Assembly: GCF_900090315.1 (NCBI RefSeq)
Contig: NZ_FMHZ01000002.1
Span: 2,148,501-2,212,500 of the forward strand
Length of the DNA stretch: 64,000 bases
Source of the DNA: Micromonospora citrea
GTDB taxonomy: Bacteria; Actinomycetota; Actinomycetes; Mycobacteriales; Micromonosporaceae
Direction: 5' to 3'
Notes under the pieces: generated by a model
Databases searched by the model: none
Seen by the model: only the letters and a program-made list of their open reading frames with translations
Told to the model about the DNA's origin: nothing
In this document: positions 6,901 to 44,243 of the stretch, piece after piece
How the letters are laid out: every line of letters begins with the position of its first letter
How positions within the stretch are numbered: the stretch's first letter is position 1
Program-made: the position numbers and the translations under genes

Positions 6901-7092
6901 GCGCAGCACCGCGTGCCGCCGGGTCAGCGCCTGCCACGCCGCGAGCAGCAGGTCCGGGTCGACGGGCCCGTGCAGCCGGTACTCGACCTGGTCGACGTAG
7001 AAGGCCGCCCGGGGGTCGGCGAGGCTGTGCGACAGCAGCCCTTCCTGCATGTACGACAAGCGGTAGATGTTGTCGACTCCGGGAACGGTCAA
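3880..7092 (-). CDS. Non-ribosomal peptide synthetase, C-A-T module (last module)
   Basis: Single elongation module of about 1070 residues. The condensation domain starts at the N terminus, with a C3 motif reading HHLLLDAW near residue 142 (the usual G of HHxxxDG is A). The adenylation domain has T-S-G-S-T-G-R-P-K-G near 617 and the A10 lysine in S-G-K-L near 951; the carrier-protein serine is in G-G-T-S-I near 1002. Reading pocket positions against PheA gives D-A-F-T-V-A-A-I-W, which suggests an aromatic or bulky hydrophobic amino acid (low confidence). The start is TTG at 7092, overlapping the TGA of the upstream PKS (TTGA) with a GAGGAAGG ribosome-binding site. There is no thioesterase, reductase or terminal C domain after the carrier, although the next gene ends the operon. 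Confidence 0.93.
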   Translation of the reverse strand: MTVPGVDNIYRLSYMQEGLLSHSLADPRAAFYVDQVEYRLHGPVDPDLLLAAWQALTRRHAVLRTSFHWEDIKQPVQVVREHVEVPMEILDWRDVPTAELPARLEQRLRADRLQGFDVQQPPLVRLTLIRTGDEDHTFVLRYHHLLLDAWSALMVLDEAFANYDTLAAGRELETGPATSFHEYVGWVRAQDLDAARQAWREALRGVTDSTTPAWIRPAEGDAPEPSGRDNPEQVLHVPAETVAALRELGRRREVTLGSLLQTCWALVLRAHSGRDDVVFGGTLSSRPSDVPGVEQTAGLFINTLPVRVRFDPARSVLATAVALQHEQAALRRYDFSPLEQVQRWSDVPPGLPLFDTIMTVLNLPGVGVLHRRSGAVEIRDGQYRYRTNYPLSVLVIPEGDRLAVRVGYDPRRVGDDAVTRLLGHLATVVDTVATRPDTPVRDVDVLTDAERALVAGWSGTSAPYPDAATVHGLVEEQADLGGDRVALRAGGESVTYRDLDRRANQLARHLHGLGVGPGTPVGLCLGRTPELVVAMLAVLKAGGYFVALDPDHPPARLADILADAGVAVVVSDRRHRAGLPRAGVETVLLDAHRDRYAGLPDDRLPATVGPDDLAYSIYTSGSTGRPKGVLVPHRGLCNVVAAQRALFGLGPDDRVLQWASPTFDASVFDVAMALGAGAALHLAPAERVAPGPDLRDLLATERITALTITPSALAAVPVATLPELRLLVLAGEALPASLVRQWRAPGRRVFNAYGPTEATIWVSVHECGPEDEAPPVGRPIPNVTVRVLDAAGRPVGVGVPGELHVGGVGLARGYAGRPDLTTQRFVPDPSGPPGARLYRTGDLVRWTEDGELRFLGRTDQQVKVRGLRIETGEVEAVLRRHDDVADCAVVARASDGSDGTPDTLVAYVVPAGAARVDAEKLLAHCAQVLPEYMLPGAVVPLDRLPLTSSGKLDVRALPSPRDLAGERAAQAEMTVTEQAVATLWGQVLQVDGLGPDGDFFALGGTSIKATQVVSRARRAWQVELPIRSVFENRTVAAFAAAVEQALAAEMDDDDQEVQDGDDQGVGAACH

Positions 7093-10000
7093 GGCTTGTC
7101 CTTCCTCAGCGTCTCGGGTGCGATGGGACGTCCGTTGGGCCGGCCGGAGCCCGCCCCGGCCAGTTGCTCGGCCAGCGCGGTCAGGTCGCTCGCGTCCAGC
7201 CCGGCGTCGGCGAAGGCGGCCAGGTCGGCCGGTGCGCGGCGGCTCCCGCCGGCCGGCGCGCGCTCCCCCGTCGGGTGGTCCGGCCCGGGGCCCGTACGCC
7301 CACCGGCTGCCCGGTCGCCGGTCTCCGGACCGGCGTCCTCCCGGTCGTCGGTGGCGACCGCGGCGAGGTCCCGGACGGTCGGGTGGGCGAAGACGTCGGC
7401 CTCGGCGATCCGCAGGCCCGCCCGGCGGGCCGCCCCGACCAGCCGGAGGCTGAGGATCGAGTCGCCGCCGAGGTCGAAGAAGTTGTCGGTGACGCCGACC
7501 CGGTCGACCCGGAAGACCTCCGCCCAGATCTCGGCGAGGATCCGCTCGCGCGGGCTCTGCGGCGGCTGCTGCGTGCGGCCGGATCCCGGCCCGGCGGCCC
7601 GGGCGGCCGGGGCCGCGTCGACGAGTTCGGCGTAGAGGCCCGGTTGCCACCGTCGCGGCAGGTGCCCGGCGAGCCGGGACCAGTCGGCGTCGGCGACCAC
7701 CAGGCACGGCGGCGCGGACGCGGAGCCCGCCAGCACGTCCAGCCCGTCGGCCGGGTCCAGGGGGTGCAGGCCGAACGCGGTCAGCCGCTCCCGCTCACGC
7801 TCGCCCAGCCGGGCCGCCATCCCGGTCCGCGCCCACGGCCCCCAGGCGATGCTGACCGCCGGCAGGCCGACGGCCCGCCGGTGCGCGGCGAGGGCGTCGA
7901 GGAAGGCGTTCCCGGCGGCGTACCCGGCCTGGCCGGCGGTGCCGACGACCCCGGCCAGCGAGGAGAACAGCACGAAGAAGTCGAGCTGGTCGTGCAGGGT
8001 GGCGAGGTGCAACTGCGCTGCGGCCAGCTTCGGCCGCAGCGGGGTGTCGAGGCGGTCGGGCGTCTGCGCCCCGAGCGGGGCGTCGTCGAGGCCGCCGGCG
8101 GCGTGCACCACGCCCCGCAGCGGCGGACCGGCGCGCCGCGCGGCGGCCACCGCCAGTTCCAGCGCGACCGGATCGGTGACGTCGCAGGCGAGGGTGCGGA
8201 CCCGGTCGCCCTCGCCCGCGAAGGGCTCAGCGCCCTCGACGGTCGTGGCGCCCCGGGACAGCAGCCACACCCGCCCCGCGCCGCGGTCCAGCAGCCAGGC
8301 CGCGACCTGCCGGCCGAGGCCGCCGGTGCCGCCGGTGACGAGGTAGCCGCCGTCCGGGCGGACGGGCAGGCTCTCCGGCCGGTCCGCCGGCGCCGGCAGC
8401 AGCCGGGGCACCAGCCTCCCCGCCGGGCGGACGGCCTGCTGCGGCGGCGGGGCGGGGGCGGTGAGCGCGGCGAGCACGGCGGCGGCGTCCGCGTCCGGGT
8501 CGCCGCCGTCGGGCGGCAGGTCGAGCAGGACGACGTCGGCGTCCGGCCGCTCGGTCATCGCCACCCGGCCCAGCCCCCAGACGGCGGCGTGGGTCGGGTC
8601 GACCGGCCCGGCGTCGGTCTGCTGACTGCCGCGGGTGACGAGCACCAGCCGGGCCTCCGGGTGCCGGGCGGCCTGGGCGTGCAGCAGGTGCAGGGCGGCG
8701 TGCGCGCCGTGGGTCTGCCGGTCGTGCAGCGCCGCCGCGCCGCCCGGCACCCCGGGGCCGTCGTCGAGGGGCCACAGCAGGGCGACGCCGCGCAGCGGCT
8801 CCGGCCCCGGATCCGCCAGCAGCGCCGGCAGCCCGCCGGGGTGGTCGGCGACCGCCGCCGGCGCGACCGTCCGGCAGGTCCCGCCCCCGTCGCGTACGGC
8901 CGCCGCGACCCGGTCGGCGACTCCCCCGCCGTCGGCCAGGAGCAGCCAGCCGCCGCTGGTGTCCGACGTCGTCCGTCCTCGGGCCGGCCCGGTGGGACGC
9001 CAGTCGACGCGGTGGCGCAGCCGGTCGCCGGCGTCGCCGTCGCGCAGCAGCGCGGTCCGGCGCACCCGGCGCAGCCGCAGGCCGTCCACGACCAGGCGGA
9101 TCCGGCCGGCGGCCCGCAGGGTGACGTCGAGGACGAGGTCGTCGCCGTCGGGGGTGGCCGACCGGAGCCGGGCCCGGCAGGTGAGGTCGTCGTCGGCGGG
9201 GTCGACCGGCGCGTACCAGGCGAGCCGGTCGACGCCGACCGGAACGGCGAGCCCGCCGCCGTCGGCCGCCAGCGCCTGCGGGGCGAGCGCCAGCACCAGG
9301 CGCAGGCAGGAGTCGAGCAGGCCGGGCTCCGGTCGGGTGGACGGCGGCACGACGCGCGGGCGACGCAGCCGGGCGTCGACCTCGTCGCCGTGCCGTACGA
9401 CCGACTCCAGCCAGTGGTAGCGGGGGCCCAGCCGGTAGCCGGCGTCCCGCATCCGGTCCTCCAGGTCCGCCACCTCGGTGCCGGCGGTGTCGCGGGGGCG
9501 GTCCGCTCCGGCCGGTGCCGGGCCGGCCGGCCGCACGGTGCCGGTGGCGTGCACCCGCCACCGCGCCGGGTCGGTCCCGGCCGCGCTGACCACCTCGGCG
9601 CTCCGCTCGCCGCCGTCCGGGGTGCCCAGCAGCACCTGCACCCGGACCTGTTCGCCTTCGGTCAGGGTGAGCGGTTCGGGGAAGGTCACGTCGCCGACCT
9701 CGACGGTCGGCTCCCCGTCGGCGGCGGCCCCGGCGAGGATCGCGGCGAGATGGTTGGCGGCCGACACGACCGTCGCGCCGAAGAGGCCGTGGTCGGTGAG
9801 CCGCTCCGGCAGCTCGGGGCCGACGACCTGCTCGAAGACGCTGCCGGTCAGTGCGGGCGAGCGCAGCCGCTCCCCGAGCGGGCCGGTGTCGGCGGGCCGG
9901 GCGGCCCCGGCGCGGCTGTCGCGCCAGAAGCGGCGACGCTGGAACGGGTACGTCGGCAGCGGCACCCGCCGGGCGTCCGGGTACACGCGGTCCCAGGCCA

Positions 10001-13000
10001 CCGGCGCGCCCGTGCAGAAGGCGGCGCCGAGCGCGTCCCGGGCGACGGCGTCGTCGCGGCGGCCCCGGCGCATCGTCGGCACCCACCGGGCGCCCGACGG
10101 CACGAGCGCCCCACGCCGGGCGAGCGTGCCGAGCACCGGGTCGGGGCCCAGCTCCAGCACCAGCCCGCAGTCCAGCTCGCCGAGGCGGCCCACCGCCTCG
10201 GCGAAGCGGACCGGCTCGCGGGCGTTGCGCCACCAGTGTTCGGCGTCCATCGGCCCGTCGAGCGGCCGCCCCGTCACGGTGGAGACCAGGTCCACGCGCG
10301 GCTCGGCCGGGCGCAGGCGGGCCGCCTCGGCGGTGAGCCCGGCGCGCACCGGATCCATCAGCGCCGAGTGGAACGCGTGCGACACCCGCAGGTCGCGGTG
10401 CCGGACGCCGGCCCCGGCCAGGGCCCGCGCCACGCCCTCGACGGCGTCGGCCGGGCCGGAGACGACGGTCTCGGCGGGGCCGTTGTACGCCGCCACGGAG
10501 ACCTCGGGGTGCCCGGCCAGCACGGCCTCCGTGGCCGCCCCGTCGGCGGCGACGGCGAGCATCCGGCCGCCGGCGGGCAGCGCGTCCATCAGACGGGCGC
10601 GTACCGCCACCAGCCGGAGCGCCTGGTCGATCGGCAGTACGCCGGCCACGCAGGCCGCCGCGTACTCGCCGACGCTGTGGCCGAGGACGACCGCCGGTTC
10701 CAGGCCCCAGGAGCCCCAGAGCCGGGCGAGGGCGTACTCGACGGCGACCACGGCCGGCTGGGTCCAGCCGGTGCGGTGCAGCAGCTCACCGCCGTCGTGG
10801 AGCACCCGGACCAGGTCGTCGCCCAGGTGCTCGCCGAGGATGTCGGCGCACTCGCGCAGGGCGGCGCGGAACACCGGTTCGGTGTCGTACAGTTCCCGGC
10901 CCATCCCCGGGTACTGGCAGCCCTGCCCGGGGAAGACGAAGGCGATCCGGGGCGCGTCGCGCACCTCGCCGGAGACCGGGCCGTCGGCCTGCCCCCGGGC
11001 GTACCGGTCGAGGTGGTGCCGCAGCTCAGCCCGGTCGGCGGCGGTGACGGCCAGGCGGTGCCGCAGCGGGGCGCGGAACCGGGCCGCGGCGGCGCAGACG
11101 GCCGGCGCGGGCAGTTCCGGGTGCCGGTCGAGGTGGTCGGCGTAGCGCCCGGCGAGGGCCCGCAGCGCGGCGGGCGACCCGGCGGAGAGCGGCAGCAGCA
11201 GGCCGGCGGTCGCGCCGTCGCCCGCCGGCGCGACCGGACGGTCCGGTCCCGCGCCGCCTTCCGCGTCGCCCGGCCCGACCCGGCCCACCGGGCCGCCGGC
11301 CGGAGCCGGCGTCGGGACGGCCGGGGTGGGCGCCGGCCGGTGCTCGGCGAGCAGCACGTGCGCGTTGGTGCCGCCGATGCCGAACGAGCTGACGCCGGCG
11401 ACCCGGGGCCGGCCGTCCGGCCCCTCCGGCCAGGGCCGGCCGGAGGTCGCCACCGAGAGGGGCAGCTCGTCCCAGGGCAGGCGGGGGTTGGGCGTGCGGA
11501 AGTTCAGGTGCGCCGGGATCCACCGGTGTCGCAGCGCCAGCACCGTCTTGATCAGGCCGACCACCCCGGCGGCGGCCTCCAGGTGGCCGATGTTCGTCTT
11601 GACCGACCCGACCAGCAGCGGGTCGCGCCGGTCCCGGCCCAGCACGTCGGCGGCGGCGCGCAGCTCGATCGGGTCGCCGAGCGGGGTGCCGGTGCCGTGT
11701 GCCTCCAGGTAGTCGACGTCGGCCGGGGCGAGGCCGGCGGCGCGCAGCGCGTCGGTCAGCAGCTCCTGCTGCGCGGTGCCGTTCGGCACGGTCAGGCCGC
11801 TGCTGGCGCCGTCGTGGTTGACGGCCGATCCGGCGAGTACGGCGTGGATGTCGTCGCCGTCGGCGATCGCGTCGGAGAGCCGCTTGAGCACCACCATTCC
11901 GGCGCCCTCGCCCCGGGAGTAGCCGTCCGCCGCCGCGTCGAAGGTCTTGCACCTGCCGTCCGGGGCGAGCGCGCCGGCCCGGCAGAGAAAGAGGGTGATG
12001 TCCGGGGCGAGCATCAGGTGCGCTCCGCCGGCCAGCGCCAGGTCGCACTCGCCGGCCCGCAGCGCCTGGGCGGCCAGGTGCACGGTGACCAGCGACGAGG
12101 AGCAGCCGGTGTCGACAGCCATCGACGGCCCGCGCAGCCCGAGCACGTACGACAGCCGGCCGGCGGCCACGCAGAAGAGGTTCCCGGTGCCGGTGTAGCC
12201 GTCGATCCGGGCCGGGTCGGCGATCTGGAGCCCCTTGTAGTCGTCGATGGACAGGCCGGCGAAGACGCCGCTGCGGGTGCCGCGCAGCCGGTCCGCCGGC
12301 ATCCCGGCGTGCTCCAGCGCCTCCCAGGCCACCTCCAGCAGGAGCCGCTGCTGGGGGTCCATGCTCTCCGCCTCCACGGCGGAGATGCCGAAGAAGTCCG
12401 CGTCGAAGGTGTCCACGGTGGGCAGGAAGCCGCCGCGCCGGGCGTAGATGGTGCCCGGTTCGAGGGGGTCGTCGCCGTGCAGCGCGTCGACGTCCCAGCG
12501 GTCGCGGGGCACCGGGCCGGTGGCGTCGACGCCGTCGCGCAGCAGCCGCCAGAACTCGTCCGGGCCGTCGGCGCCGGGCACCCGGCAGGCCATGCCGACC
12601 ACGGCGATCGGCTCGTCGGAGGCGGACGCCCGGCCCGTCCCGGAAGGCGCCGCCGCCCCGGCCGCCGGCCGGTCCGCCTCGCCGCCGAGCCCCGCGGCGA
12701 GGTGGGCGGCGAGGTCGGCGACGGTCGGGTGGTCGAACGCCACCGTGGGCCCGACCGGGACGTGCGGGCGCAGGTCGGCGGCGAGCCGCTCGGCGAGGCG
12801 GACGGCGGTCAGCGAGTCGAAGCCGAGGGCGAACAGGCCCGCGTCGGCGGGGATCTCGGCGCGGTCGCGGCCGAGCACCTCCGCCGCGCGGTCCACCACG
12901 TACTCCCGCACCCGGTGGCCGAGCCCGGCCGGGCTGCCGGCGCGCAGCCGGTCCACGACCGGCGACCCGACGGACACCCGCTCCGGCTCGTCGGCCGCCG

Positions 13001-14237
13001 GGGCGCCGGCGGTCCGGGTCACGGTCGGCAGCGCGTCCCAGGTGACCGGCAGGCCGGCGAGGTAGAGGTCGGCGGCCAGAGCGTGGACCGCCTCGGCGGC
13101 GTCCCGGTCGGGGCGCAGCGAGCCCAGCACGGTGGTGCCGGGTCGCCCGCCCAGGCACTGCAGCAGCGCGGTGCGCAGCACCGGGGTGGGGCTCACCTCC
13201 AGGTGCACGGCCGCGTCGGCGCGGGCCACGGCGTCGAGGAAGCGCACCGGGCGGCGGGACAGCATCCCCCAGTGCTCCGCGCCCAGCCGGTCGCCGCCGA
13301 CCAGGTCGCCGTGGACCGTGGACACCATGTCGGTGGTGGTGGGCCCGTTGCGCAGCAGCGGCCGCAGGTCCGCCACCAGTTCCCCGGTGAACGGCTCCAT
13401 CTGCGGGCTGTGGAAGGCGTAGTTGATGCCGAGGTCGCGGTGGAACACCCGGTCGGCGGCCAGCCGCGCCACGGCGGCGTCCAGGGCGGACCGCTCCCCC
13501 GACAGCACCACGCTGGCCGGGCCGTTCACGGCCGCCAGGGACAGCCCGGCGGGCAGGTCGGCGAGCAGCCGGGTGGCCTGCTCCGCGGAGAGGCCGACGG
13601 CGAGCATCCCGCCGCCGCCGGTGGCCCGCTGCAACATCCGGCCCTGGTGGTAGGCGACCGCCATGGCGTCCTCGACGCCGAGCGCCCCGGCGGCGTACGC
13701 GGCCGTGATCTCGCCGAGGCTGTGCCCGATCACCACGTCGGGTCGCACCCCGAGGCTCTTCAGCAGGGCCAGCAGGCCGATCTCCACCGCGACGATCGCC
13801 GGCTGGGCGACGGCGGTCTCGGCGAGCCGGGTCGACGCCGCCGGTCGCCTGATCTCCTCGGTGACCGACCAGCCGCCCAGCGCCCGTACGGCCGCGTCGC
13901 ACCGGTCCAGGGCGGCCGCGTACGGGGCGCACCCGGACAGCCCGTCGCCCATGCCGGGCCACTGGGTGCCCTCGCCGGAGAACACCAGGGCCAGGCGCGG
14001 GACGTCGGTGCCGGTGGCCGTGCGTACCCCCTCGGGGTGCTCCCCCGCGGCGGCCGAGCGCAGCGCGGCCACCAGCGCCGCCCGGTCCCCGCCGGTGGCG
14101 ACCAGCCGGTGCGCCGCGCCCGCCGGCGCGGCCCGGCCGGTCGGCTCCGCCCCGGCGGCCAGCCGGTCGGCGGCCTCGGCGGCCCGGCGGCGCAGCGCGT
14201 CGGGGTCGGCGGCGCCGATCGGCACCATCCAGGACAT
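7089..14237 (-). CDS. Type I polyketide synthase, AT-ACP-KS-AT-DH*-KR-T
   Basis: Large PKS of about 2382 residues. Domain order: AT1 (GHSLGE near 171, substrate motif YAFH near 272), ACP (G-F-D-S-L near 474), KS (starts near 545; active Cys in DTGCSSSL near 711; H-G-T-G-T near 846; N-I-G-H near 882), AT2 (GHSVGE near 1186, HAFH near 1289, malonyl-like), a double-hotdog DH-like region (about 1450-1712), KR (T-G-G-T-G-G-L-G near 1967, LDD motif near 2048 suggesting B-type, Tyr in G-Y-A-A-G-N near 2107) and a PCP-like carrier (G-G-D-S-I near 2256). The DH has DHGLFG but S for the usual Pro, and D-S-C-L-R where D-x-x-x-Q/H is expected, so activity is doubtful. Starting with AT-ACP downstream of an NRPS protein that ends in a C domain is unusual. 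Start ATG with GGAGG site; 11-nt gap to the upstream gene. Confidence 0.93.
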   Translation of the reverse strand: MSWMVPIGAADPDALRRRAAEAADRLAAGAEPTGRAAPAGAAHRLVATGGDRAALVAALRSAAAGEHPEGVRTATGTDVPRLALVFSGEGTQWPGMGDGLSGCAPYAAALDRCDAAVRALGGWSVTEEIRRPAASTRLAETAVAQPAIVAVEIGLLALLKSLGVRPDVVIGHSLGEITAAYAAGALGVEDAMAVAYHQGRMLQRATGGGGMLAVGLSAEQATRLLADLPAGLSLAAVNGPASVVLSGERSALDAAVARLAADRVFHRDLGINYAFHSPQMEPFTGELVADLRPLLRNGPTTTDMVSTVHGDLVGGDRLGAEHWGMLSRRPVRFLDAVARADAAVHLEVSPTPVLRTALLQCLGGRPGTTVLGSLRPDRDAAEAVHALAADLYLAGLPVTWDALPTVTRTAGAPAADEPERVSVGSPVVDRLRAGSPAGLGHRVREYVVDRAAEVLGRDRAEIPADAGLFALGFDSLTAVRLAERLAADLRPHVPVGPTVAFDHPTVADLAAHLAAGLGGEADRPAAGAAAPSGTGRASASDEPIAVVGMACRVPGADGPDEFWRLLRDGVDATGPVPRDRWDVDALHGDDPLEPGTIYARRGGFLPTVDTFDADFFGISAVEAESMDPQQRLLLEVAWEALEHAGMPADRLRGTRSGVFAGLSIDDYKGLQIADPARIDGYTGTGNLFCVAAGRLSYVLGLRGPSMAVDTGCSSSLVTVHLAAQALRAGECDLALAGGAHLMLAPDITLFLCRAGALAPDGRCKTFDAAADGYSRGEGAGMVVLKRLSDAIADGDDIHAVLAGSAVNHDGASSGLTVPNGTAQQELLTDALRAAGLAPADVDYLEAHGTGTPLGDPIELRAAADVLGRDRRDPLLVGSVKTNIGHLEAAAGVVGLIKTVLALRHRWIPAHLNFRTPNPRLPWDELPLSVATSGRPWPEGPDGRPRVAGVSSFGIGGTNAHVLLAEHRPAPTPAVPTPAPAGGPVGRVGPGDAEGGAGPDRPVAPAGDGATAGLLLPLSAGSPAALRALAGRYADHLDRHPELPAPAVCAAAARFRAPLRHRLAVTAADRAELRHHLDRYARGQADGPVSGEVRDAPRIAFVFPGQGCQYPGMGRELYDTEPVFRAALRECADILGEHLGDDLVRVLHDGGELLHRTGWTQPAVVAVEYALARLWGSWGLEPAVVLGHSVGEYAAACVAGVLPIDQALRLVAVRARLMDALPAGGRMLAVAADGAATEAVLAGHPEVSVAAYNGPAETVVSGPADAVEGVARALAGAGVRHRDLRVSHAFHSALMDPVRAGLTAEAARLRPAEPRVDLVSTVTGRPLDGPMDAEHWWRNAREPVRFAEAVGRLGELDCGLVLELGPDPVLGTLARRGALVPSGARWVPTMRRGRRDDAVARDALGAAFCTGAPVAWDRVYPDARRVPLPTYPFQRRRFWRDSRAGAARPADTGPLGERLRSPALTGSVFEQVVGPELPERLTDHGLFGATVVSAANHLAAILAGAAADGEPTVEVGDVTFPEPLTLTEGEQVRVQVLLGTPDGGERSAEVVSAAGTDPARWRVHATGTVRPAGPAPAGADRPRDTAGTEVADLEDRMRDAGYRLGPRYHWLESVVRHGDEVDARLRRPRVVPPSTRPEPGLLDSCLRLVLALAPQALAADGGGLAVPVGVDRLAWYAPVDPADDDLTCRARLRSATPDGDDLVLDVTLRAAGRIRLVVDGLRLRRVRRTALLRDGDAGDRLRHRVDWRPTGPARGRTTSDTSGGWLLLADGGGVADRVAAAVRDGGGTCRTVAPAAVADHPGGLPALLADPGPEPLRGVALLWPLDDGPGVPGGAAALHDRQTHGAHAALHLLHAQAARHPEARLVLVTRGSQQTDAGPVDPTHAAVWGLGRVAMTERPDADVVLLDLPPDGGDPDADAAAVLAALTAPAPPPQQAVRPAGRLVPRLLPAPADRPESLPVRPDGGYLVTGGTGGLGRQVAAWLLDRGAGRVWLLSRGATTVEGAEPFAGEGDRVRTLACDVTDPVALELAVAAARRAGPPLRGVVHAAGGLDDAPLGAQTPDRLDTPLRPKLAAAQLHLATLHDQLDFFVLFSSLAGVVGTAGQAGYAAGNAFLDALAAHRRAVGLPAVSIAWGPWARTGMAARLGERERERLTAFGLHPLDPADGLDVLAGSASAPPCLVVADADWSRLAGHLPRRWQPGLYAELVDAAPAARAAGPGSGRTQQPPQSPRERILAEIWAEVFRVDRVGVTDNFFDLGGDSILSLRLVGAARRAGLRIAEADVFAHPTVRDLAAVATDDREDAGPETGDRAAGGRTGPGPDHPTGERAPAGGSRRAPADLAAFADAGLDASDLTALAEQLAGAGSGRPNGRPIAPETLRKDKP

Positions 14238-14248
14238 GGGCACCTCCG

Positions 14249-17200
14249 TCACCGTGGTTCCACCGCCGCCGGGACGGGCAACGGCGTGTCCTTGATCTGG
14301 TGGCCGGCCAGCTCGCCCTCCACCAGCAGCACCTTCGCGGCGGCGGGTCGGGCGGGCGGCCGGAGCGCCTCGGCGACCGGCCGGTGCGGGTCGGCCGTGA
14401 TCGCCGCGAGCGTCGCCACGAGGTCGTCGAGCACCCGGCCGGCGGCCTCGTCGGTCAGCAGGTCGCGGTGGTAGGACAGGATCAGTCCCAGCTCCACCCC
14501 CGGCATCACGTCGAGGCGGAACGGCTCGGCCATCCGGCTGAAGAACGTCGGGATCCGCTCGGTGGAGCCGAACAGGTTCGGGTCGAGGTTCTGGAAGACC
14601 AGGTACGCGTCGAACATCGGCCGGTCCGCCGGCCAGCCGGCCCACGCCGCCACCCGTTCCGGCGCGACGTACTGGTGGTGGGCGGCGTCGGCGCCGACGG
14701 TCATGACGTGCGACAGCAGGTCCACGACGGGCCGGTCGGGCCCGGGCAGCCGCACCCGCATCGGCAGCACGTTCATCGTCGGGCCGGTCAGGTCCTCGAC
14801 GCCGGGCAGGTCCGCCGGGCGGCCGTTGAAGAAGACGCCCAGGGTGGCCTCGCCGCGGCCGGCGTACCGGGCGAGCAGCACCGCCCAGGCGGCCTGGACC
14901 AGCGTGTTCGGGGGCATCCGCAGCCGCTGCGCGGTGTCCCGCAGCGCCTCGGTGACGCCCGCGTCCACGTGCAGGTGCTGCCGGGCGTAGCCGCGCTGGG
15001 CGCCGGGCCGGTTGCCGGGCGCGGAGGCGGCCAGCGGGGTCGGCGACCACCCGTCGGCGAACAGGTCCCGCCAGAACCCGGGCGTGTCGGCCGGTACGCC
15101 GCGGCGACGCAGCCAGCCGACGTAGCGGCTGAACGGCACGTCCGTGCCGGCCTGCGGGGTCTCGCCGGCGAGCAGCCGGTGGTACTCCCCGATGACGTCG
15201 CTGAGGAAGACGCTGAGGCTCCACCCCTCCATCCGCAGGTAGCTGAAGCTGAACACCGTCCGGTAGGCGTCCTCGTCCACCTTGCCGAGGAAGAGCCGGA
15301 TGCCGGCCGGGTCGTCGGGGCCGCAGCCGACCGCCTGGTCCTCACGCAGGAAGCGGGCCAGCTCGGCGTCCTGCTCGGCGGCGGTGAGCCCGGTCCAGTC
15401 CTCGTACCGGGAGGGCAGCTCGACGTCGCGCCGCACCACCTGGAGCGGCTCGTCCAGGTCGGTCCAGACGAACATGGTCCGGAGCAGGGCGTACCGGCGG
15501 GCCAGCCCGGCCCAGCACCGGCGCAGCAGGTCCACGTCGATCGGGCCGCGCAGGGTGTCGACGCGCTGCACCAGGTATTCGCCGGGGCGCGGGTCGGCGA
15601 CCAGCCGACGCAGCATGTGCGCCTGGTACGGGGCCAGCGGGAAGACCTCCGTCACGTCGGGGTCGGCCAGCAGCCGCTCCCGGCGGGCCCGGTCGCGTTC
15701 CGACAGCCCCCAGTCCGCCGGCGGCTCCGCCGCGTCGTCGGCGGGCCCGTCGGCGACGCCGCCCTCGGCGAGGCGGGCGTCGGCGACCGCCGCGAGCTCC
15801 GCCACCGTCGGGTGCGCGAACAGGTCGCGGGGCACCAGCGGCAGGCCGGCCTGGTTGGCGCGGGCCATCACCCGGATCCCGCGGATCGAGTCGCCGCCCA
15901 GCTCGAAGTAGTTGGCGGTGGCGCTGACCCGCTCCAGGCCGAGCACGGACGCCCAGATGTCGGCGACGAGCCGCTCGGTGCCGTCGGCCGGCGCGACGTG
16001 CGCGCCCCGGTCCCGGGCCGCCGCCGGCGGCGGCGCCGGCAGGTCCGACCAGGCGACCTTGCCGTTGAGGCTGAGCGGGATGTCGGGCACGGGAACGAAC
16101 ACCGCCGGCACCGCGTAGCGCGGGATCCGGTCCTTCAGGTGGGCCCGCCAGCGGGGGCCGAGTTCGCCCATCAGGCGGGCCTGGCGGGGCCAGTTCGCGG
16201 GCGCGCCGGCGCGAGTCGGGGGCGCCGGGGGCCACGACGGTCGCACGTCGGCGCGGTGGAACAGGGCGTCCATCCGGGTCGGGTCGGCGGGGGACGGGGC
16301 GACGACGACGCGTACGCCCAGTTCGTCGGCGAGCCGGTACAGCGCGTCGGGGTCGACGCCGGCCGGTTCCCGCTCGACGCGGGCGCGCAGCTCGCCGACG
16401 GTCCGGCAGGCCCCGGCGCCGGCCCGCAGCACGGCGATCTCGCGGAGGCGGTCGTTGGGTGTCCCGGTCACGGCGACCGCCGGTTCCTCCCGGAGCCGCT
16501 CGCGCAGCCGGCCGGCCAGGTCGCCGTCCCAGCCGAGCGGGTCGACGGCCGGTTCCGGCCCGGCCGGGCCGTCGGGCGCGGGGTCGGCGGCGACGTGGAC
16601 GACGACGTCGTAGCGGAACCGGCTCAGCTCGTTGTCGTACCCGCCGGGCTTGAGCCGCACCTGCACGGCGGCCACGCCGGGCACGGTCTCGCCGAGGGCG
16701 GTGAACAGCGCCGGGTCGAGCGCCAACTCCTCCTCCTGCCAGGTCCGGGCCGCCGCCCGGGCGAGCACCACCGCCGGGTCGTCGTCGGGGCCCGCCCGGT
16801 GCAGCTCCACCGAGCGGTGGAAGTCGGCCAGCAGGGGCAGGCTGCGGACGTCGCCGACGATCACCCGGCCGCCCGGGGCGACGAGCCGGAGCGCCTGCGC
16901 CAGCACCCGCCGCAGGTAGTCGGCGTCCGGGAAGTACTGCACCACCGAGTTCAGCAGCACGGTGTCGAAGGACCCGGCGGGCAGGTCCGCCAGCTCGTGC
17001 GCGGCCCGCTCGTCGAGGGTCACGCCCGCCAGGCCGCGGGCCCGGACCTCGGCGCGGACCTGGCCGAGCGCGAACCGGGAGATGTCGGTGCCGTGGTACG
17101 AGACGGCGTGCGGCGCGATGCGCAGCAGGAGCAGCCCGAGCCCGCAGCCCACCTCGAGGACCCGACCGGGCGGCGTCGCCAGGGCCAGGGAGACGGTCTC

Positions 17201-20200
17201 GTCGACCCACCGCCGCATCTCGTCGGCCGGGATCGGGGCGCCGGTGTAGCTGCTGTTCCAGCTGGAGAAGTTGCTGTCCGCCGCGTCGGGGGTCTCCGGC
17301 TCGGTGTACGCCTCGTCGAAGACCCGCGCCCACTGGTGCACGGTGCCGTCGGCGTCGCCGGTCGCCGGGGGCTCGTCCGGGGCCGCCGGCGCGGCCGGCT
17401 CCGGTGGCTCCCCGGCGCGGGGCACCACGTACGCCACGAGCTGGCCCTCGTCCCCGGCGTCCCGGCGCACGGTGACCACCGCGTCCCGGACGGTGGGGTG
17501 CTCCCGCAGGGCCGCCTCGATCTCGCCGAGTTCGAAGCGGATGCCCCCGAGCTTGACCTGGAGGTCCTCGCGACCGAGGTAGGACAGGGTGCCCCCGGGC
17601 CGCCACCGGACGATGTCGCCGGTGCGGTACATCCGGGCGCCGGGGCGGTCGGTGAACGGGTCGGGGACGAACCGCTCGGCGGTCAGCGCCGGCCGGCCCT
17701 GGTAGCCCCGGGCCACCTGGATGCCGCCGATGCACAGCTCGCCGGGCACCCCGACCGGCACCGGCCGCCCGGCCGGGTCCAGCACGTAGATGCTGGTGTT
17801 GTCGACCGGCGCGCCGATCGACACGTCGGCGTTGGGCTCCTCCCCGGGCAGGCACCGGTGGGCGGTGACGTCCACGGCGGCCTCGGTCGGGCCGTAGAGG
17901 TTGTCCAGCCGCGCGGGCAGCCGCTCCTGGAGCCGGCGGACCAGGTCGCGGGGCAGCGCCTCGCCGCTGCACACCACCCGGCGCAGCCCGGTGCAGGTGG
18001 CCGAACGCGGCTCGTCGAGGAAGAGCCGGAGCATCGAGGGCACGAAGTGGACGGTGGTGATCCGCTGGTCGTTGATCAGGTCGACCAGGTAGCCGGGGTC
18101 GCGGTGCCCGTCGGGGCGGGCCATGGTGACGGTCGCGCCGACCAGCAACGGCCAGAAGAACTCCCACACCGAGACGTCGAAGCTGGCGGGCGTCTTCTGC
18201 AGCACCGCCTCCCCGGCGGTCAGCCCGAAGCGGCGCTGCATCCAGCGCAGCCGGTTCACCACCGCGCGGTGGCTGTTCATCACCCCCTTCGGCATGCCGG
18301 TCGAGCCGGAGGTGTGGATGACGTACGTCAGGTCGTCCTCGGTGACCCCGCTCGCCGGGGCCCGCTCGGACTCGTCGGCGCAGTCGTCGCGGTGCAGGTC
18401 GATCGCCGGCGGGGCGTCGGCGGGCAGCACGTCCCGCCCGCCGTCGCCGGTCAGCACGATCCGCGCGCCGCAGTCGGCGAGCAGGTACGCCAGCCGCGCG
18501 GGCGGGTGGTCCGGGTCCAGCGGCACGTAGCAGCCGCCGGCCTTGAGCACGCCCAGCAGCGCCACCAGCAGCTCGGGTGACCGGTCGAGGCAGACCGCTA
18601 CCCGGCTGTCGGGGCGTACGCCGTGCCGCCGCAGCCGGTTGGCCAGCCGGTTGGCGCGCCGGTCCAGCTCGGCGTAGGTCAGCGACCGGTCGTCGAGCCG
18701 CACGGCGACGTGCTCCGGGGTCCGCCGGACCTGCTCGGCGATCAACTCGTGCAGGACGCGCGGCGCGGGCTCCGGGGCGGCGGTGTCGTTCCACACCCGC
18801 AGGACGCGGTCGCGCTCCTCGGCGTCGACGAGTTCCAGCCGCGACAGCGGGGCGTCGGGGTCGGCGCAGACCTGGTCGAGCAGGCGCAGCAAGCTGGCCA
18901 GGATCCGCTCGACGGTGTCCCGGTCGAACAGGTCGGTCGCGTACTCCAGCCCGCCGGGCAGCGTGTCCCCGGCGTCGGCCAGCGACAGCCACAGGTCGAA
19001 CTTCGCCGACCCGGTGTCGCCCTCGACGAGCCCGACGAGCTGGGTGTCGGCGGTCAGGTCGACCCGGGGCGGCGGGGTGTTGTTCAGCGCCAGCATCACC
19101 TGGAACACCGGGTTGTGGCTGGTGCTGCGCTCGGGTTGCAGCTCGTCGACGAGCTTCTCGAACGGCAGGTCCTGGTGGGCGAAGTCGGCCGACACGTCGG
19201 CGCCGACCCGGGCCAGCAACTGCCGGAACGTCGGGTCGCCGGTCACCGTGGTGCGCAGCGCGAGGGTGTTGGCGAAGAAGCCGAACAGGTCCTCCAGCTC
19301 GGGCCGGTTGCGGTTGGCCACCGGCGTGCCGACGACCACGTCGGGCTGCCCCGACCAGCGGGAGAGCACGACCGTGAAGGCGGCGAGCAGCACCATGAAC
19401 AGGGTGCTGTCGGTGCCGGCGCACAGCGCGCGCAGCCGCCCGGTGAGCCGCTCGTCGACGGTGAACCGGAGGGTGTCGCCGCGGAAGCTCTGCACGGTGG
19501 GCCGGGGCCGGTCGGTCGGCAGCTCCAGCAGCGCGGGGATGCCGTCGAGGCGTTCCCGCCAGTAGCGCACCTGCCGGGCCAGCGCGGGGCCGGACATCTG
19601 CGCCCGCTGCCAGACCGCGTAGTCGGCGTACTGGAGCTTCAGCTCGGGCAGCCGGGGCGTGCCGCCGGTGACCAGCGCGGAGTAGCACTCGGCCAACTCC
19701 CGGGAGAACACCCGGCCCGACCAGCCGTCGGCGATCAGGTGGCTCCAGTTGACCAGGAAGACGTGCCGCTCCGGGGCGAGCCGGAACAGCCCGAACCGGA
19801 CCAGCGGACCGACCGCCAGCACGAAGGTGCGCCGGGCCTCCTCCTGGAGGGCCTGCCGCACCCGTTCCTCGCGTTCGGCCTCGTCGAGGCCGGTCAGGTC
19901 GGTCACCGGCAGGTCGACGGTCGCCGGCGGCGAGACCACCTGCACCGGCTCGCCGTCGGCCTCCCGGATGGTGGTGCGCAGCGCCTCGTGCCGGTCGACG
20001 ATGCGCTGCACGCTGTCGCGCAGCGCCGCCACGTCCAGCGGCCCGCGCAGCTCCACCGCCATCGGCGTGTTGTACGCCGGGCTGTCCGGCACCATCCGCT
20101 CGAGGAACCACAGGCGCTGCTGGGAGAAGGACAGCGGCGCCGGGCCGTCGTCGCCCCGGCGGGGGATCTCGTCGCGGTTGCCGCGCCGCCCCCTGGACCA

Positions 20201-20275
20201 GGCCGCCAGCAGCGCCTGCTTGGCCGGGGACAACGCCTGGGCGGGGCGGGCCCCGCGCTGCTCGTCGACGGTCAT
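14249..20275 (-). CDS. Non-ribosomal peptide synthetase, C-A(nMT)-T-C*
   Basis: About 2008 residues. The first C domain has S-H-L-I-A-D-G-W near 180 (first His of HHxxxDG replaced by Ser, catalytic His kept). The A domain (core H-T-S-G-S-T-G near 655) gives pocket residues D-V-W-H-V-S-L-V-D, the standard serine code. An N-methyltransferase is inserted before the A10 motif: SAM motif V-L-E-V-G-C-G near 1037, A10 N-G-K-V near 1405. Expected building block: N-methylserine. The carrier Ser is in G-G-D-S-I-R near 1462. A second condensation-type domain occupies about 1540-1990, but its C3 motif reads S-Y-L-R-M-E-G-W near 1680, lacking both His and Asp. It faces the AT-ACP start of the next protein. 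ATGA overlap with the upstream PKS fixes the start at 20275. Confidence 0.94.
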   Translation of the reverse strand: MTVDEQRGARPAQALSPAKQALLAAWSRGRRGNRDEIPRRGDDGPAPLSFSQQRLWFLERMVPDSPAYNTPMAVELRGPLDVAALRDSVQRIVDRHEALRTTIREADGEPVQVVSPPATVDLPVTDLTGLDEAEREERVRQALQEEARRTFVLAVGPLVRFGLFRLAPERHVFLVNWSHLIADGWSGRVFSRELAECYSALVTGGTPRLPELKLQYADYAVWQRAQMSGPALARQVRYWRERLDGIPALLELPTDRPRPTVQSFRGDTLRFTVDERLTGRLRALCAGTDSTLFMVLLAAFTVVLSRWSGQPDVVVGTPVANRNRPELEDLFGFFANTLALRTTVTGDPTFRQLLARVGADVSADFAHQDLPFEKLVDELQPERSTSHNPVFQVMLALNNTPPPRVDLTADTQLVGLVEGDTGSAKFDLWLSLADAGDTLPGGLEYATDLFDRDTVERILASLLRLLDQVCADPDAPLSRLELVDAEERDRVLRVWNDTAAPEPAPRVLHELIAEQVRRTPEHVAVRLDDRSLTYAELDRRANRLANRLRRHGVRPDSRVAVCLDRSPELLVALLGVLKAGGCYVPLDPDHPPARLAYLLADCGARIVLTGDGGRDVLPADAPPAIDLHRDDCADESERAPASGVTEDDLTYVIHTSGSTGMPKGVMNSHRAVVNRLRWMQRRFGLTAGEAVLQKTPASFDVSVWEFFWPLLVGATVTMARPDGHRDPGYLVDLINDQRITTVHFVPSMLRLFLDEPRSATCTGLRRVVCSGEALPRDLVRRLQERLPARLDNLYGPTEAAVDVTAHRCLPGEEPNADVSIGAPVDNTSIYVLDPAGRPVPVGVPGELCIGGIQVARGYQGRPALTAERFVPDPFTDRPGARMYRTGDIVRWRPGGTLSYLGREDLQVKLGGIRFELGEIEAALREHPTVRDAVVTVRRDAGDEGQLVAYVVPRAGEPPEPAAPAAPDEPPATGDADGTVHQWARVFDEAYTEPETPDAADSNFSSWNSSYTGAPIPADEMRRWVDETVSLALATPPGRVLEVGCGLGLLLLRIAPHAVSYHGTDISRFALGQVRAEVRARGLAGVTLDERAAHELADLPAGSFDTVLLNSVVQYFPDADYLRRVLAQALRLVAPGGRVIVGDVRSLPLLADFHRSVELHRAGPDDDPAVVLARAAARTWQEEELALDPALFTALGETVPGVAAVQVRLKPGGYDNELSRFRYDVVVHVAADPAPDGPAGPEPAVDPLGWDGDLAGRLRERLREEPAVAVTGTPNDRLREIAVLRAGAGACRTVGELRARVEREPAGVDPDALYRLADELGVRVVVAPSPADPTRMDALFHRADVRPSWPPAPPTRAGAPANWPRQARLMGELGPRWRAHLKDRIPRYAVPAVFVPVPDIPLSLNGKVAWSDLPAPPPAAARDRGAHVAPADGTERLVADIWASVLGLERVSATANYFELGGDSIRGIRVMARANQAGLPLVPRDLFAHPTVAELAAVADARLAEGGVADGPADDAAEPPADWGLSERDRARRERLLADPDVTEVFPLAPYQAHMLRRLVADPRPGEYLVQRVDTLRGPIDVDLLRRCWAGLARRYALLRTMFVWTDLDEPLQVVRRDVELPSRYEDWTGLTAAEQDAELARFLREDQAVGCGPDDPAGIRLFLGKVDEDAYRTVFSFSYLRMEGWSLSVFLSDVIGEYHRLLAGETPQAGTDVPFSRYVGWLRRRGVPADTPGFWRDLFADGWSPTPLAASAPGNRPGAQRGYARQHLHVDAGVTEALRDTAQRLRMPPNTLVQAAWAVLLARYAGRGEATLGVFFNGRPADLPGVEDLTGPTMNVLPMRVRLPGPDRPVVDLLSHVMTVGADAAHHQYVAPERVAAWAGWPADRPMFDAYLVFQNLDPNLFGSTERIPTFFSRMAEPFRLDVMPGVELGLILSYHRDLLTDEAAGRVLDDLVATLAAITADPHRPVAEALRPPARPAAAKVLLVEGELAGHQIKDTPLPVPAAVEPR

Positions 20276-23200
20276 CGCGCGGCTCCGTCCGACTCGCCGC
20301 CGACCGCCGGCCCGGGGCCGCCCCCCGCCGCCACGGGGCCGCCGTCGACCGCCGGCCCGGGGCCGCCGTCGCTCGCGGCGGCGCCGCCGTCCGCGCCGTC
20401 CGCGCCGGACGCGCCGTCCTGGAGGGCGCGGATGATGGTGGCCTGGGCGGCGATGGTGTGCGCCTTGAACAGCTCCTCCAGCGGCAGGTCCACCGCGAAG
20501 CGTTCCCGCAGCCGGGTGACCAGGCGGGTGGTCAGCAGGGAGCTGCCGCCGAGGGCGAAGAAGTTGTCGTGCACGCCGACGGTCTCGAAGCCGAGCAGCT
20601 CCCGCCAGGCGGCGGCGATCGACTCCTCCAAGTCGTCGCGGGGCGCCACGTACTCCGTGGTCAGGTGGGGGCGCTTGTGCAGGGTGCTGCCGAGGTCCAC
20701 GTCGAGGCTGGTCGGGCCGGCGTCGACCGGCTCCGGCACCCGGCGCGGCGCCACCGAGTCGTCCTGCACCGGGACGGGGCCGTCCTCCGGCGCGTCGATC
20801 CAGTAGCGGCGGCGCTCGAACGGGTAGGTCGGCAGGGACACCCGCCGGCAGGGCTGGCCGGCCGCGAAGGACTCCCAGTCGACGTCCACCCCGGACTCCC
20901 AGAGCCGGGCCAGCGTCGCCAGCAGGAACGCCTGGTCCGGCTGCGAGTCGCGGGGGTGCCGGATCGACGGCAGGACCGGCGGGGCGGCGCCGTCGCCGTT
21001 GGCCCCCACCAGCGCGCCGAGCACCGTGCCGGGGCCGACCTCGACCAGCGTCCGGTCGGTGGCGCCGGCGAGCAGGGTGCGCACCCCGTCGCCGAAGCGG
21101 ACGGTGCCCCGCAGTTGCCGCACCCAGTAGTCGGGGTCGGTGGCCTCGGCCGGGGTGATCCAGGTGCCGGTGACGTTCGAGACGTACGCCAGCGTCGGCT
21201 CGCGCAGGGTGAGGCCGGCGACGTGGGCGCGGAACTCGTCGAGCACCGGCTCCATGGCCACCGAGTGGCCGAGGGTCCGCACGTGCAGCCGGCGGAAGTC
21301 CACCCCGTCGGCGGCGAGCCGGTCGGCCAGCTCCTGCACGGGCTCGACCAGGCCGGAGACGGTGCACTGGCCGGGGGCGTTCACCGCGGCGATGGAGAGT
21401 TCCGGCCCCAGCCGGGCGGCGAGTTCCTCCTCCGGCAGCGACACGGCGAGCATGGCGCCGCCGGGCAGGCGGTCGATGAGCTGGCCGCGCAGGGCGACGG
21501 TGTCGATCGCGTCGGCGAGGTCGAAGACGCCGGCCAGGCAGGCGGCCACATACTCGCCGCCGCTGTGGCCGAGCATCGCCTCCGGGCGCACGCCCCACGA
21601 CTCCCACAGCCTGGCCAGCGCGTACTCGACGGCGAACAGGGCGGTGGTCACCCCGGCGGAGGTGCCGAGGAACTCCTGCACGGCCCGGTCGCCGTCGGGC
21701 GCGCGGACCACGTCGCGCAGGTCGTAGCCGAGCCGGGCGGCGGCCAGGTCGGCGCAGCGGTCCAGATGCTCGGCGAAGACCGGCTCGTCGGCGTAGAGCT
21801 GGCGGCCCATGCCGACGTACTGGCTGCCGCCGCCGGGGAAGAGGAAGGCGACCCTGCGGCCGGGGCGGAAGTCGACGGCCGCGCCCGGCGGCGTGCTCAG
21901 CGCCGCGGCGGCCTGGGTGGCGTCACGACACACCACCGCCCGCCGACGCTCGAAATGCCGCCGACCCACCTGCAACGTGTACGCCACATCCGCCAAACCC
22001 ACCCCACCCGAAGCCAACACCCCACCAACCCGACGCCCCACCTCCACCAGAGCCGACGGCGTCCGCCCCGACACCACCACCACCTGCCAACCCCGCACCC
22101 CACCGCCAACCGAACTCACCGCAGGCGGCTGCTCCAACACCACATGCGCATTCGTCCCACCAACCCCCAACGCCGACACACCAGCCCGCCGCACCCCCAC
22201 CAAAGGCCACGACACCAACTCACCATTCACAAAAAACGGAGACGACTCCAACGCCAACTTCGGATTCGCCTCACGAAAATGCACCGTCGGCGGCACCACA
22301 CCCTCCCGCACCGCCAACACCGCCTTCACAAAACCCGCCACCCCCGCCGCCGCATCCAAATGCCCCACATTCGTCTTCACCGACCCCAACGCACAAAACC
22401 CCACCCCATCCGCATCCACCCGAAACGCCCGCGTCAACCCCGCAACCTCAATCGGATCCCCCAACGGCGTCCCCGTCCCATGCGCCTCCACAAAACCCAC
22501 CGACGACGCCGACACCCCCGCCACCGCCAACGCATCCGCCACCACCTGCGCCTGACCCACCGCCGACGGCGCCGTAAAACCCGCCTTACCACCACCGTCG
22601 TTGTTCACCGCCGAACCCCGCACCACCGCATGCACCACATCCCCCGCCGCCACCGCATCGACCAACCGCCGCAACACCACGACACCCACGCCGCTGCCGC
22701 CGACGATCCCGCTCGCGTTGCGGTCGAACGCGCGGCAGTGGCCGTCCGGGGACAGGCCGGTGCCCTCGCGGTACACGTGGCCGACGTTCTCCGGGATCTT
22801 CACCCCGACGCCGCCGGCCAGCGCCATGTCGCACTCCCCGGCCAGCAGCGACTGGCACGCCTGGTGGATCGCCACCAGCCCGGTCGAGCACGCCGTCTGG
22901 ATGGTCATCGCCGGCCCGTGCAGGTCCAGCTTGTACGCCACCCGGGTGGCCAGGAAGTCGTCGTTGGAGCTGATCATCATGGGCAGGTAGTCCAGGTAGA
23001 ACGCCTGCGCCAGCGCGGGATTGCGCATGATGTTGTAGAGCGAGTACGTGTTCATGGACTGGCCGGCGTAGACGCCGATGCGGCCCGGGAAACGCGCCGG
23101 GTCGTACGCGGCGTCCTCCAGCGCCTCCCACGCGCACTCCAGGAACAGCCGGTGCTGCGGATCCGTCATCTCCGCCTCGTGGGCGTTGAACCCGAAGAAC

Positions 23201-23458
23201 TCCGCGTCGAACAACTCCACGCCGTCCAACCGCGCCTTCGCCGGCACGTAACTCGGATGCGAGTACACCGACTCCGGCACCCCCGCCGCCGCCAACTCCT
23301 CCGGCGAGAAGAACGTCACCGACTCCACCCCGGCACACAGATTCCGCCAGAACTCCGCGACGTTCGACGCCCCCGGGAAACGACCCGCCAGGCCGACCAC
23401 CGCCAGGGCGTTCTCCAGTTCCTCGGGCAGTTCCGCGGTGGTGGTGCCCGGGTTGGTC

Positions 23459-23481
<23 letters not shown>
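20272..23481 (-). CDS. Type I polyketide synthase, KS-AT-T module
   Basis: Minimal extension module, about 1069 residues. The KS has A-L-A-V-V-G-L-A-G near 27, active Cys in T-A-C-S-T-G near 197, H-G-T-G-T-P-L-G-D near 334 and N-V-G-H-L near 370. The AT has GHSGGE near 640; at the usual HAFH/YASH position it reads T-L-G-H near 740, keeping the catalytic His but giving no standard extender prediction. The carrier is PCP-like (G-G-S-S-L-L near 980), followed by a Gly/Ala/Asp/Pro-rich tail of about 55 residues that may be a docking linker. No KR, DH or ER: the beta-keto group should stay unless reduced in trans. The start ATG at 23481 overlaps the NRPS upstream by 23 nt. Positions 21905-22683 are nearly identical to the other KS-AT-T gene. 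Confidence 0.95.
21905..22683. repeat. Gene-conversion tract, copy 1 (779 bp, shared with 28391-29169)
   Basis: Line-by-line comparison with 28391-29169 shows a single difference (A at 22204, C at 28690). The tract covers the C-terminal half of the KS and the start of the KS-AT linker. On the coding strand its third codon positions are mostly G or T, unlike the C/G-ending codons on either side, so the tract looks foreign to both modules. Flanking KS sequence differs clearly at about 22684-23080. Confidence 0.9.
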
Positions 23482-26766
<3,285 letters not shown>

Positions 26767-26770
<4 letters not shown>

Positions 26771-29700: not shown

Positions 29701-29922
29701 CCGCGCCTTCGCCGGCACGTAACTCGGATGCGAGTACACCGACTCCGGCACCCCCGCCGCCGCCAACTCCTCCGGCGAGAAGAACGTCACCGACTCCACC
29801 CCGGCACACAGATTCCGCCAGAACTCCGCGACGTTCGACGCCCCCGGGAAACGACCCGCCAGGCCGACCACCGCCAGGGCGTTGTCGAACTGCTCGTCGA
29901 GGTGCGCGGGCAACTCGGTCAT
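26767..29922 (-). CDS. Type I polyketide synthase, KS-AT-T module
   Basis: Minimal extension module, about 1051 residues, paralogous to the gene at 20272-23481. The KS has active Cys in S-A-C-S-T-S near 184, H-G-T-G-T-P-L near 317 and N-V-G-H-L near 350. The AT has GHSSGE near 627; the HAFH-equivalent reads Q-A-A-H near 726, so the catalytic His is kept but extender choice is unclear. The carrier has G-G-D-S-L-L-T near 947. The C-terminal tail contains L-S-D-A-D-A-E-R-L followed by further 17-residue repeats, a likely docking element for the next NRPS. No reductive domains. Start in an ATGA overlap with the preceding NRPS. 28391-29169 is shared almost base for base with the other KS-AT-T gene, as are shorter blocks in the KS start and AT. 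Confidence 0.95.
26789..26941 (-). repeat. Three 51-bp tandem repeats in the C-terminal tail of the PKS
   Basis: Imperfect direct repeats with period 51 bp start at 26789, 26840 and 26891. They keep the reading frame and encode three copies of a 17-residue motif of the type D-S/A-D/E-A-E/G-R-L-x-G-x-T-D. The most upstream copy in coding direction resembles the L-S-D-x-E-A-x-x-L docking helix found at the C terminus of many NRPS/PKS proteins. Confidence 0.75.
28391..29169. repeat. Gene-conversion tract, copy 2 (779 bp, shared with 21905-22683)
   Basis: Second copy of the tract at 21905-22683, 6486 bp away, in the same orientation and the same position within the module; one base differs. The G/T-rich third codon positions end abruptly at both borders. 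Additional near-identical blocks occur outside it, for example 29550-29880 against about 23070-23415 and 27950-28130 against about 21470-21650, separated by clearly diverged stretches, giving a mosaic. Confidence 0.9.
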
Positions 29923-44219: not shown

Positions 44220-44243
44220 ACGTCGCACACCAGGGAGGGCAGC

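Follow-up and report, generated by a model that had tools for sequence, protein, structure and literature searches.

A tyrosine-type terminal condensation domain of Micromonospora citrea that most likely ends a hybrid assembly line rather than feeding the neighbouring polyketide synthase

A 64,000-nucleotide stretch of the Micromonospora citrea genome (NCBI RefSeq assembly GCF_900090315.1, contig NZ_FMHZ01000002.1, positions 2,148,501 to 2,212,500 of the forward strand; hereafter the window, in whose own numbering coordinates are given) carries on its minus strand seven megasynthases of the nonribosomal peptide synthetase (NRPS) and polyketide synthase (PKS) types. At 14.2 kb, the protein named here NRPS-E ends in a condensation (C)-type domain, C*, and the next protein, PKS-F, opens with an acyltransferase (AT) and an acyl carrier protein (ACP). 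A preliminary description of this DNA saw in that junction a split step, with C* coupling N-methylserine to an acyl group loaded by the AT. The evidence presented here indicates that C* does not feed PKS-F but, most likely, completes the molecule and sets it free. The two proteins and their parts are as follows.

14249..20275, minus strand: NRPS-E, 2008 aa, C-A(Ser)-MT-PCP-C*, proposed terminal module, 40% identity to Laj10 over its length
17408..18739, minus strand: adenylation (A) domain of NRPS-E, code DVWHVSLVD
16841..17194, minus strand: methyltransferase (MT) domain after the A-domain core of NRPS-E, predicted to N-methylate
15788..15970, minus strand: peptidyl carrier protein (PCP) of NRPS-E
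14363..15646, minus strand: C*, Tyr-type terminal condensation domain of NRPS-E
15221..15244, minus strand: C3 motif SYLRMEGW of C*, in place of HHxxxDGW
14252..14335, minus strand: C-terminal tail of NRPS-E after C* (LLVEGELAGHQIKD...)
7089..14237, minus strand: PKS-F, 2382 aa from the ATG, AT-ACP-KS-AT-DH-KR-PCP, proposed first protein of the line
13029..13994, minus strand: AT1 of PKS-F, loading type, Gln198 for the extender Arg
12690..12926, minus strand: ACP1 of PKS-F, Ser475
11499..12614, minus strand: ketosynthase (KS) of PKS-F, directly after ACP1

The layout reported earlier was borne out at this junction. A terminal C-type domain with the motif SYLRMEGW (15244-15221) closes NRPS-E at 14249, the domain order of PKS-F is AT-ACP with the KS after it, and the ACP placed near residue 474 has its serine at residue 475. 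The stop codon of NRPS-E (14251-14249) is overlapped by a GTG at 14252, and with the ATG of PKS-F at 14237 there is no space for a hidden KS. A frameshift or sequencing error masking a normal KS had also been considered, but homologous proteins share both ends: protein clusters P0004-P0007 have the C-terminal end of NRPS-E (2007-2029 aa; 93-97% identity over the C* region) and P0125-P0127 the AT-ACP start of PKS-F (2358-2379 aa; 91-95% identity). Because both ends recur in this way, such an error is very unlikely, and this explanation was rejected. At the other end of NRPS-E, the first C domain (20140-18809) reads SHLIADGW, with Ser for the first His and the catalytic second His kept.

A conserved Arg in ATs binds the carboxylate of malonyl-type units. 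In AT1, Gln198 stands at this position, 27 residues after the GHS motif (GHS+27, by alignment to DEBS). Among PKS proteins from the AT-ACP protein search, which comprised the best 120 of 2537 matches within a length limit, Arg was found at GHS+27 in 239 of the 242 ATs that follow a KS. Thirty-five N-terminal ATs carried 20 Arg, 10 Trp, 4 Gln and 1 Gly (15/35 non-Arg); the four with Gln are the window's own group (P0124-P0127), and some of those with Arg may be fragments whose KS was cut off. The 49 ATs belonging to neither group (47 Arg, 1 Trp, 1 Met) were left out of the count. The other ATs of the minus-strand line, namely those of PKS-B and PKS-D and AT2 of PKS-F, all have Arg. Gln in place of the carboxylate-binding Arg is what would be expected of a starter AT; standing at the N-terminus with the KS after it, AT1-ACP1 looks, as judged from its sequence, like a starter (loading) didomain for a neutral acyl group. 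The earlier suggestion that AT-ACP is a second loading point is supported as to loading, but it is seemingly the sole loading point of the line and not a second one. Further along PKS-F, the dehydratase (DH) domain (9878-9048) reads HGLFGATVVS, with Ser at the Pro position of the DH motif HxxxGxxxxP, and its dehydration activity is uncertain.

The remaining minus-strand members of the line, together with a stand-alone thioesterase, are as follows.

20272..23481, minus strand: PKS-D, KS-AT-ACP, no ketoreductase (KR) or DH match
23459..26770, minus strand: NRPS-C, C-A-PCP
26767..29976, minus strand: PKS-B, KS-AT-ACP, 5' end approximate
29919..33329, minus strand: NRPS-A, C-A-PCP, 5' end approximate
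3880..7080, minus strand: NRPS-G, C-A-PCP, proposed partner after PKS-F, 5' end approximate
35107..35865, minus strand: stand-alone thioesterase

NRPS-A, NRPS-C, NRPS-E and NRPS-G start with a C domain, PKS-B and PKS-D with a KS, and PKS-F alone with AT-ACP; six of the seven end in a carrier protein (A, B, C, D, F and G), and NRPS-E alone in a C domain. None of the seven gave a thioesterase (TE) match. With its only loading didomain in PKS-F and its only carrier-less end in NRPS-E, the line most likely has its end and its start joined at 14.2 kb, and a chain that runs from PKS-F to NRPS-E needs no unusual hand-over there. This corrects the predicted build order of the cluster. Between the two, the order G, A, B, C, D would be that of the genes, except that F and G come first. 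The A-domain codes are DAWFLGHVV in NRPS-A, which we take to be Leu-like, DIYDVTMVW in NRPS-C and DAFTVAAIW in NRPS-G, presumably Phe-like; DVWHVSLVD in NRPS-E is taken as a Ser code. PKS-D gave no KR or DH match, so a beta-ketone is expected just before the Ser module.

In an HMMER alignment to McyB (8hlk), the S, Y and E of C* occupy the H, H and D positions of HHxxxDG, and the second His of canonical amide-forming domains is therefore a Tyr. The preliminary description had both the catalytic His and the Asp missing. Loss of the His stands; loss of the Asp is true of the window, but Glu takes its place in only 6 of the 286 scanned C domains, those of the window and of the five relatives nearest to it, and the other Tyr-type members retain the Asp. 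Across 15 homologues and the window, the motif reads [STH]YLR[MLV][DE]GW. The structural modelling suggested earlier yielded a condensation-domain fold (mean pLDDT 85.8), which superposes on C domains of many kinds, terminal C (CT) domains of fungal NRPSs included, and singles out no subtype. Decay into a pseudo-domain was rejected, as motif and full domain are retained at 36-54% identity and the model is confident. On its sequence, C* is a plausible candidate for a non-canonical catalyst. Most members of the window's group have a similar tail after C* (LIVEGxLxxxQ[IL]DESP in Streptomyces members); it reads GFREGRFVIKD after the terminal C domain of Laj10 and is missing from P0031 and P0062. 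In the window (LLVEGELAGHQIKD) it may serve for docking or contribute to the active site.

To place C* among its kin, a scan took in 286 C domains, each matched over 380 model positions or more; they came from the window, 15 chosen loci and 120 database proteins. The sample was gathered by searches with C* itself and is therefore not a census. Tyr stands at the second His in 22 of the 286, which comprise the window, 15 database homologues, four loci of the type of Laj10 (an NRPS of the lajollamycin cluster, treated below), P0062 and P0068. All but one of these domains lie at the end of their protein (21/22), the exception being P0068 of Micromonospora sp. NBC_01412 (C-A-PCP-C-TE), where the Tyr-type domain sits between a Ser module and a TE. 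P0062 combines KS-AT-ACP-C-A(Ser)-PCP-C(Tyr) in a single chain. In an 81-row tree with the motif columns masked, made by a quick search with SH-aLRT support and no bootstrap, the 18 of the 22 that were included form one clade (SH-aLRT 99), and the window group joins the Laj10-type loci (SH-aLRT 96). Among the 137 C domains with a readable upstream A domain, the four Laj10-type loci being left out, a Ser code precedes all 17 of the Tyr type and 7 of the 120 others; the Fisher p-value of 1.6e-16 is overstated and only a guide, because the sequences are related. Two of the Laj10-type loci, read apart, have the codes DMWSVGMVH (L038) and DFWNIGMVH (L039), which we take to be Ser/Thr-like. No account of this clade was found in the literature searched, which reaches few subscription papers, the oxazolomycin cluster paper not among them.

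Overlapping sets of genomes were searched for further relatives: 160 from the genus (E<=1e-40), 354 from the family and 394 from the class (both 1e-75), and 392 from the genus to which G442, a genome with a Laj10-type locus, belongs (1e-70). Apart from the window genome itself, none of these searches gave a close orthologue. In the 160-genome search, the matches that come next have 28-36% identity, and no Tyr motif occurs in the 29 of them that were read (L004-L032). A Laj10-type relative was found in four genomes, G442 and G722 in the class search and G442, G874 and G910 in the search of G442's genus; relatives weaker than the cut-offs would escape detection. A contig scan with alignment A1 gave 8 pattern matches and no confirmed relative, and in a tblastn search of plasmids (505 records) the best place of each record was below 60% identity, 25 being listed at 30-34%.

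The link to a known product comes from locus L044 (NZ_FOGO01000010.1:39106-60470, Streptomyces qinglanensis CGMCC 4.6825), a 97% match in a scan with the G442 locus. It overlaps the lajollamycin cluster, which the accessible part of the source (PMC10831120, cited throughout in this extent) places at 38,930-122,339 of that contig, and the terminal C domain of Laj10 belongs to the Tyr-type clade. Laj10 is a 2004-aa NRPS and a homologue of OzmL at 49%, and lajollamycin is a spiro-beta-lactone-gamma-lactam (PMC10831120); OzmL, of the oxazolomycin pathway, is compared here by name and by that identity only. Laj10 and NRPS-E share the order C-A-MT-PCP-C, 40% identity over 2005 aligned positions, a Tyr for the catalytic His in a C domain at the protein end, and no TE match on either. 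Upstream of Laj10, Laj9 has KS, MT and ACP without a KR match, and PKS-D has KS-AT-ACP, likewise without one, so that a Ser or Thr module behind a KR-less PKS is found in the window and, the codes of Laj10 kin being Ser/Thr-like, appears to recur in the laj cluster. The two systems differ in the motif, SYLCLDGW with the Asp kept in Laj10 (SLSYLCLDGWS at the end of the NRPS in L044) against SYLRMEGW, in the A-domain codes (those of L038 and L039 against DVWHVSLVD) and in the upstream PKS, which is trans-AT in the laj pathway (PMC10831120) and cis-AT in the window; the C domains of the Laj10 kin L033, L034 and L036 have 35-36% identity to C*. In L044, read to 10 kb downstream, an AT protein of about 1223 aa follows Laj10 (Laj11 is an AT protein of 1224 aa; PMC10831120), and a second AT comes next. 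As expected for a lajollamycin-type cluster, G442 encodes a nitric oxide synthase, at a distance of about 67 kb from the C domain; none was found in G910.

Altogether, we favour, with a probability of about 0.68, the reading that the junction sets the last protein (NRPS-E) beside the first (PKS-F) with no reaction step between them, and that C* offloads the product by cyclisation. The place of C* at the end of the line is well supported; the release chemistry at C* is inferred. AT1-ACP1 would load a neutral acyl starter, which would be extended by the KS-AT-DH-KR-PCP of PKS-F and would pass through NRPS-G, NRPS-A, PKS-B, NRPS-C and PKS-D to NRPS-E, where serine would be added and then N-methylated. 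The beta-ketoacyl-N-methylseryl thioester would be presented beside C* and offloaded through intramolecular cyclisation, with the serine alpha-carbon closing onto the beta-ketone and the serine hydroxyl onto the thioester. By kinship with Laj10, the likeliest head group would be an N-methyl gamma-lactam with a spiro-beta-lactone. More tentatively, and with the odds somewhat against it, Tyr-type domains may form a separate C-C-bond-forming class, with Tyr in place of the amide-forming His, that closes a beta-ketoacyl-seryl thioester by an intramolecular aldol reaction and then releases it as a beta-lactone.

Two alternatives are each unlikely. In the first, C* would release by Dieckmann condensation, attack of the beta-ketoamide on the seryl thioester through its malonyl-derived carbon giving an N-methyl-5-hydroxymethyl tetramate; this is a variant of the favoured cyclisation, with the same place and substrate and a different ring, and the odds of the two overlap. 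A beta-ketoacyl-N-methylseryl-S-PCP could indeed cyclise to a tetramate too, PKS-D lacks the MT match seen in Laj9, and the megasynthases gave no TE match, but the closest relative of known product belongs to a spiro-beta-lactone-gamma-lactam pathway and a tetramate does not require steady Ser/Thr coding. Just as improbably, C* could be a non-catalytic platform that recruits a trans-acting releasing enzyme, as the X domain of glycopeptide synthetases recruits P450s. Loss of the catalytic His, the tail after C* and the TE that follows the Tyr-type domain of P0068 agree with this, as does the likewise altered motif of X domains (HRxxxDD; PMC11546977, also cited from its accessible part). However, the window contains no P450 match, the nearest lying over 480 kb away, and recruitment of a P450 by an X-like C* was rejected; moreover, the Tyr kept throughout the clade found, with D or E beside it in the motif, suggests a catalytic or binding role.

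Less likely still is formation of an ester or amide by C*, either to a second molecule or to a nucleophile of the upstream chain. Fungal terminal C domains release by such macrocyclisation (PMC11546977), and the C* model superposes on CT domains among many other kinds, but these share the canonical HxxxDxxS motif (PMC11546977), the His of which is Tyr in C*. The split step of the preliminary description, with C* coupling the N-methylseryl chain to an acyl group on ACP1, is the least supported of these readings and very unlikely. Adjacency of the two genes, with the GTG overlapping the stop at 14252, and the tail after C* speak for it; against it stand the starter-type AT1 with its Gln, the protein's own KS directly after ACP1, the position of clade members at protein ends (a TE alone following in P0068), and C* relatives beside which no AT-ACP was seen. 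The best 120 of 2537 matches include none with between 91 and 47% identity to the AT-ACP of PKS-F, although an Actinoplanes C* at 76% exists. An obligate pairing of C* with AT-ACP was also rejected, as the laj cluster has a C* relative followed by two AT proteins.

Several points weigh against release by C* as favoured here. The TE of P0068 shows that such a domain need not release everywhere, and release in that protein may be by the TE. No MT match was found in P0062 or P0068, which puts N-methylation outside the common core of the clade. The accessible part of PMC10831120 proposes release by Laj10 as a whole and gives the step to no domain, and the head group suggested above is drawn from kinship with Laj10 rather than from a product of the window cluster. 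The tail could dock a partner, and a C domain in which Tyr replaces the second His might lack catalytic activity. Finally, that no AT-ACP accompanies the Actinoplanes and Streptomyces homologues P0008, P0017, P0019 and P0021 was judged from the best 120 of 2537 matches within a length limit, many of them unnamed, and not from gene neighbourhoods.

Other features of the window were noted in passing. In the KS regions of PKS-D and PKS-B (22001-24000 and 28001-30000), GC skew falls to about -0.20 and GC content to about 0.71, and by eye the two proteins share long identical stretches, maybe through recent duplication or gene conversion. The C-terminus of PKS-B (about 26950-26770) bears imperfect acidic-motif repeats (like SDAERLAGGTDR), also seen by eye, which may be a docking tail. 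On the minus strand at about 34972-33395 lies a protein with a radical SAM match and a B12-binding match below the curated cut-off, possibly a C-methylating or rearranging enzyme of the pathway. On the plus strand (37410-45059), a unit reminiscent of iterative PUFA-type synthases consists of a KS-AT-ACP-KR protein, a separate AT, a 99-aa protein and an SDR; it could supply the starter acyl group.

For the oxazolomycin family, closure and release of the spiro-beta-lactone-gamma-lactam has been given to no domain as far as the literature searched reaches, and the Tyr-type clade, with its Ser/Thr modules behind PKSs that are KR-less where readable, offers one candidate with one testable residue. 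Its signature could locate strained-ring products in genomes. If a separate C-C-bond-forming class is real, the product of the window cluster would be a peptide-polyketide not yet described, bearing a gamma-lactam/beta-lactone warhead, and YLR[x][DE]G would serve as a genome-mining hook for others.

Among known systems, SalC of salinosporamide biosynthesis is a stand-alone KS-like enzyme that converts a beta-ketoacyl-aminoacyl thioester into a gamma-lactam-beta-lactone. The window has four KS matches, in PKS-B, PKS-D, PKS-F and the plus-strand PKS, none of them stand-alone, and a SalC-like candidate was rejected. The loading AT-ACP of DEBS1 type is N-terminal, has a KS after it and an AT without the Arg; PKS-F has the same AT-ACP-KS start and an Arg-less AT, with Gln in AT1 where Trp is the commonest substitute among the scanned N-terminal ATs (10 of 15 non-Arg). 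The fungal CT domain of TqaA shares with C* a C-type fold at the end of the line and release without a TE, but fungal CT domains keep the His motif and make macrocycles (PMC11546977). The glycopeptide X domain shares a C-type fold and an altered motif, which has Arg (PMC11546977) where C* has Tyr, SYLRME in place of HRxxxDD. It is through the Tyr-type clade that the window cluster is connected to the lajollamycin/oxazolomycin family.

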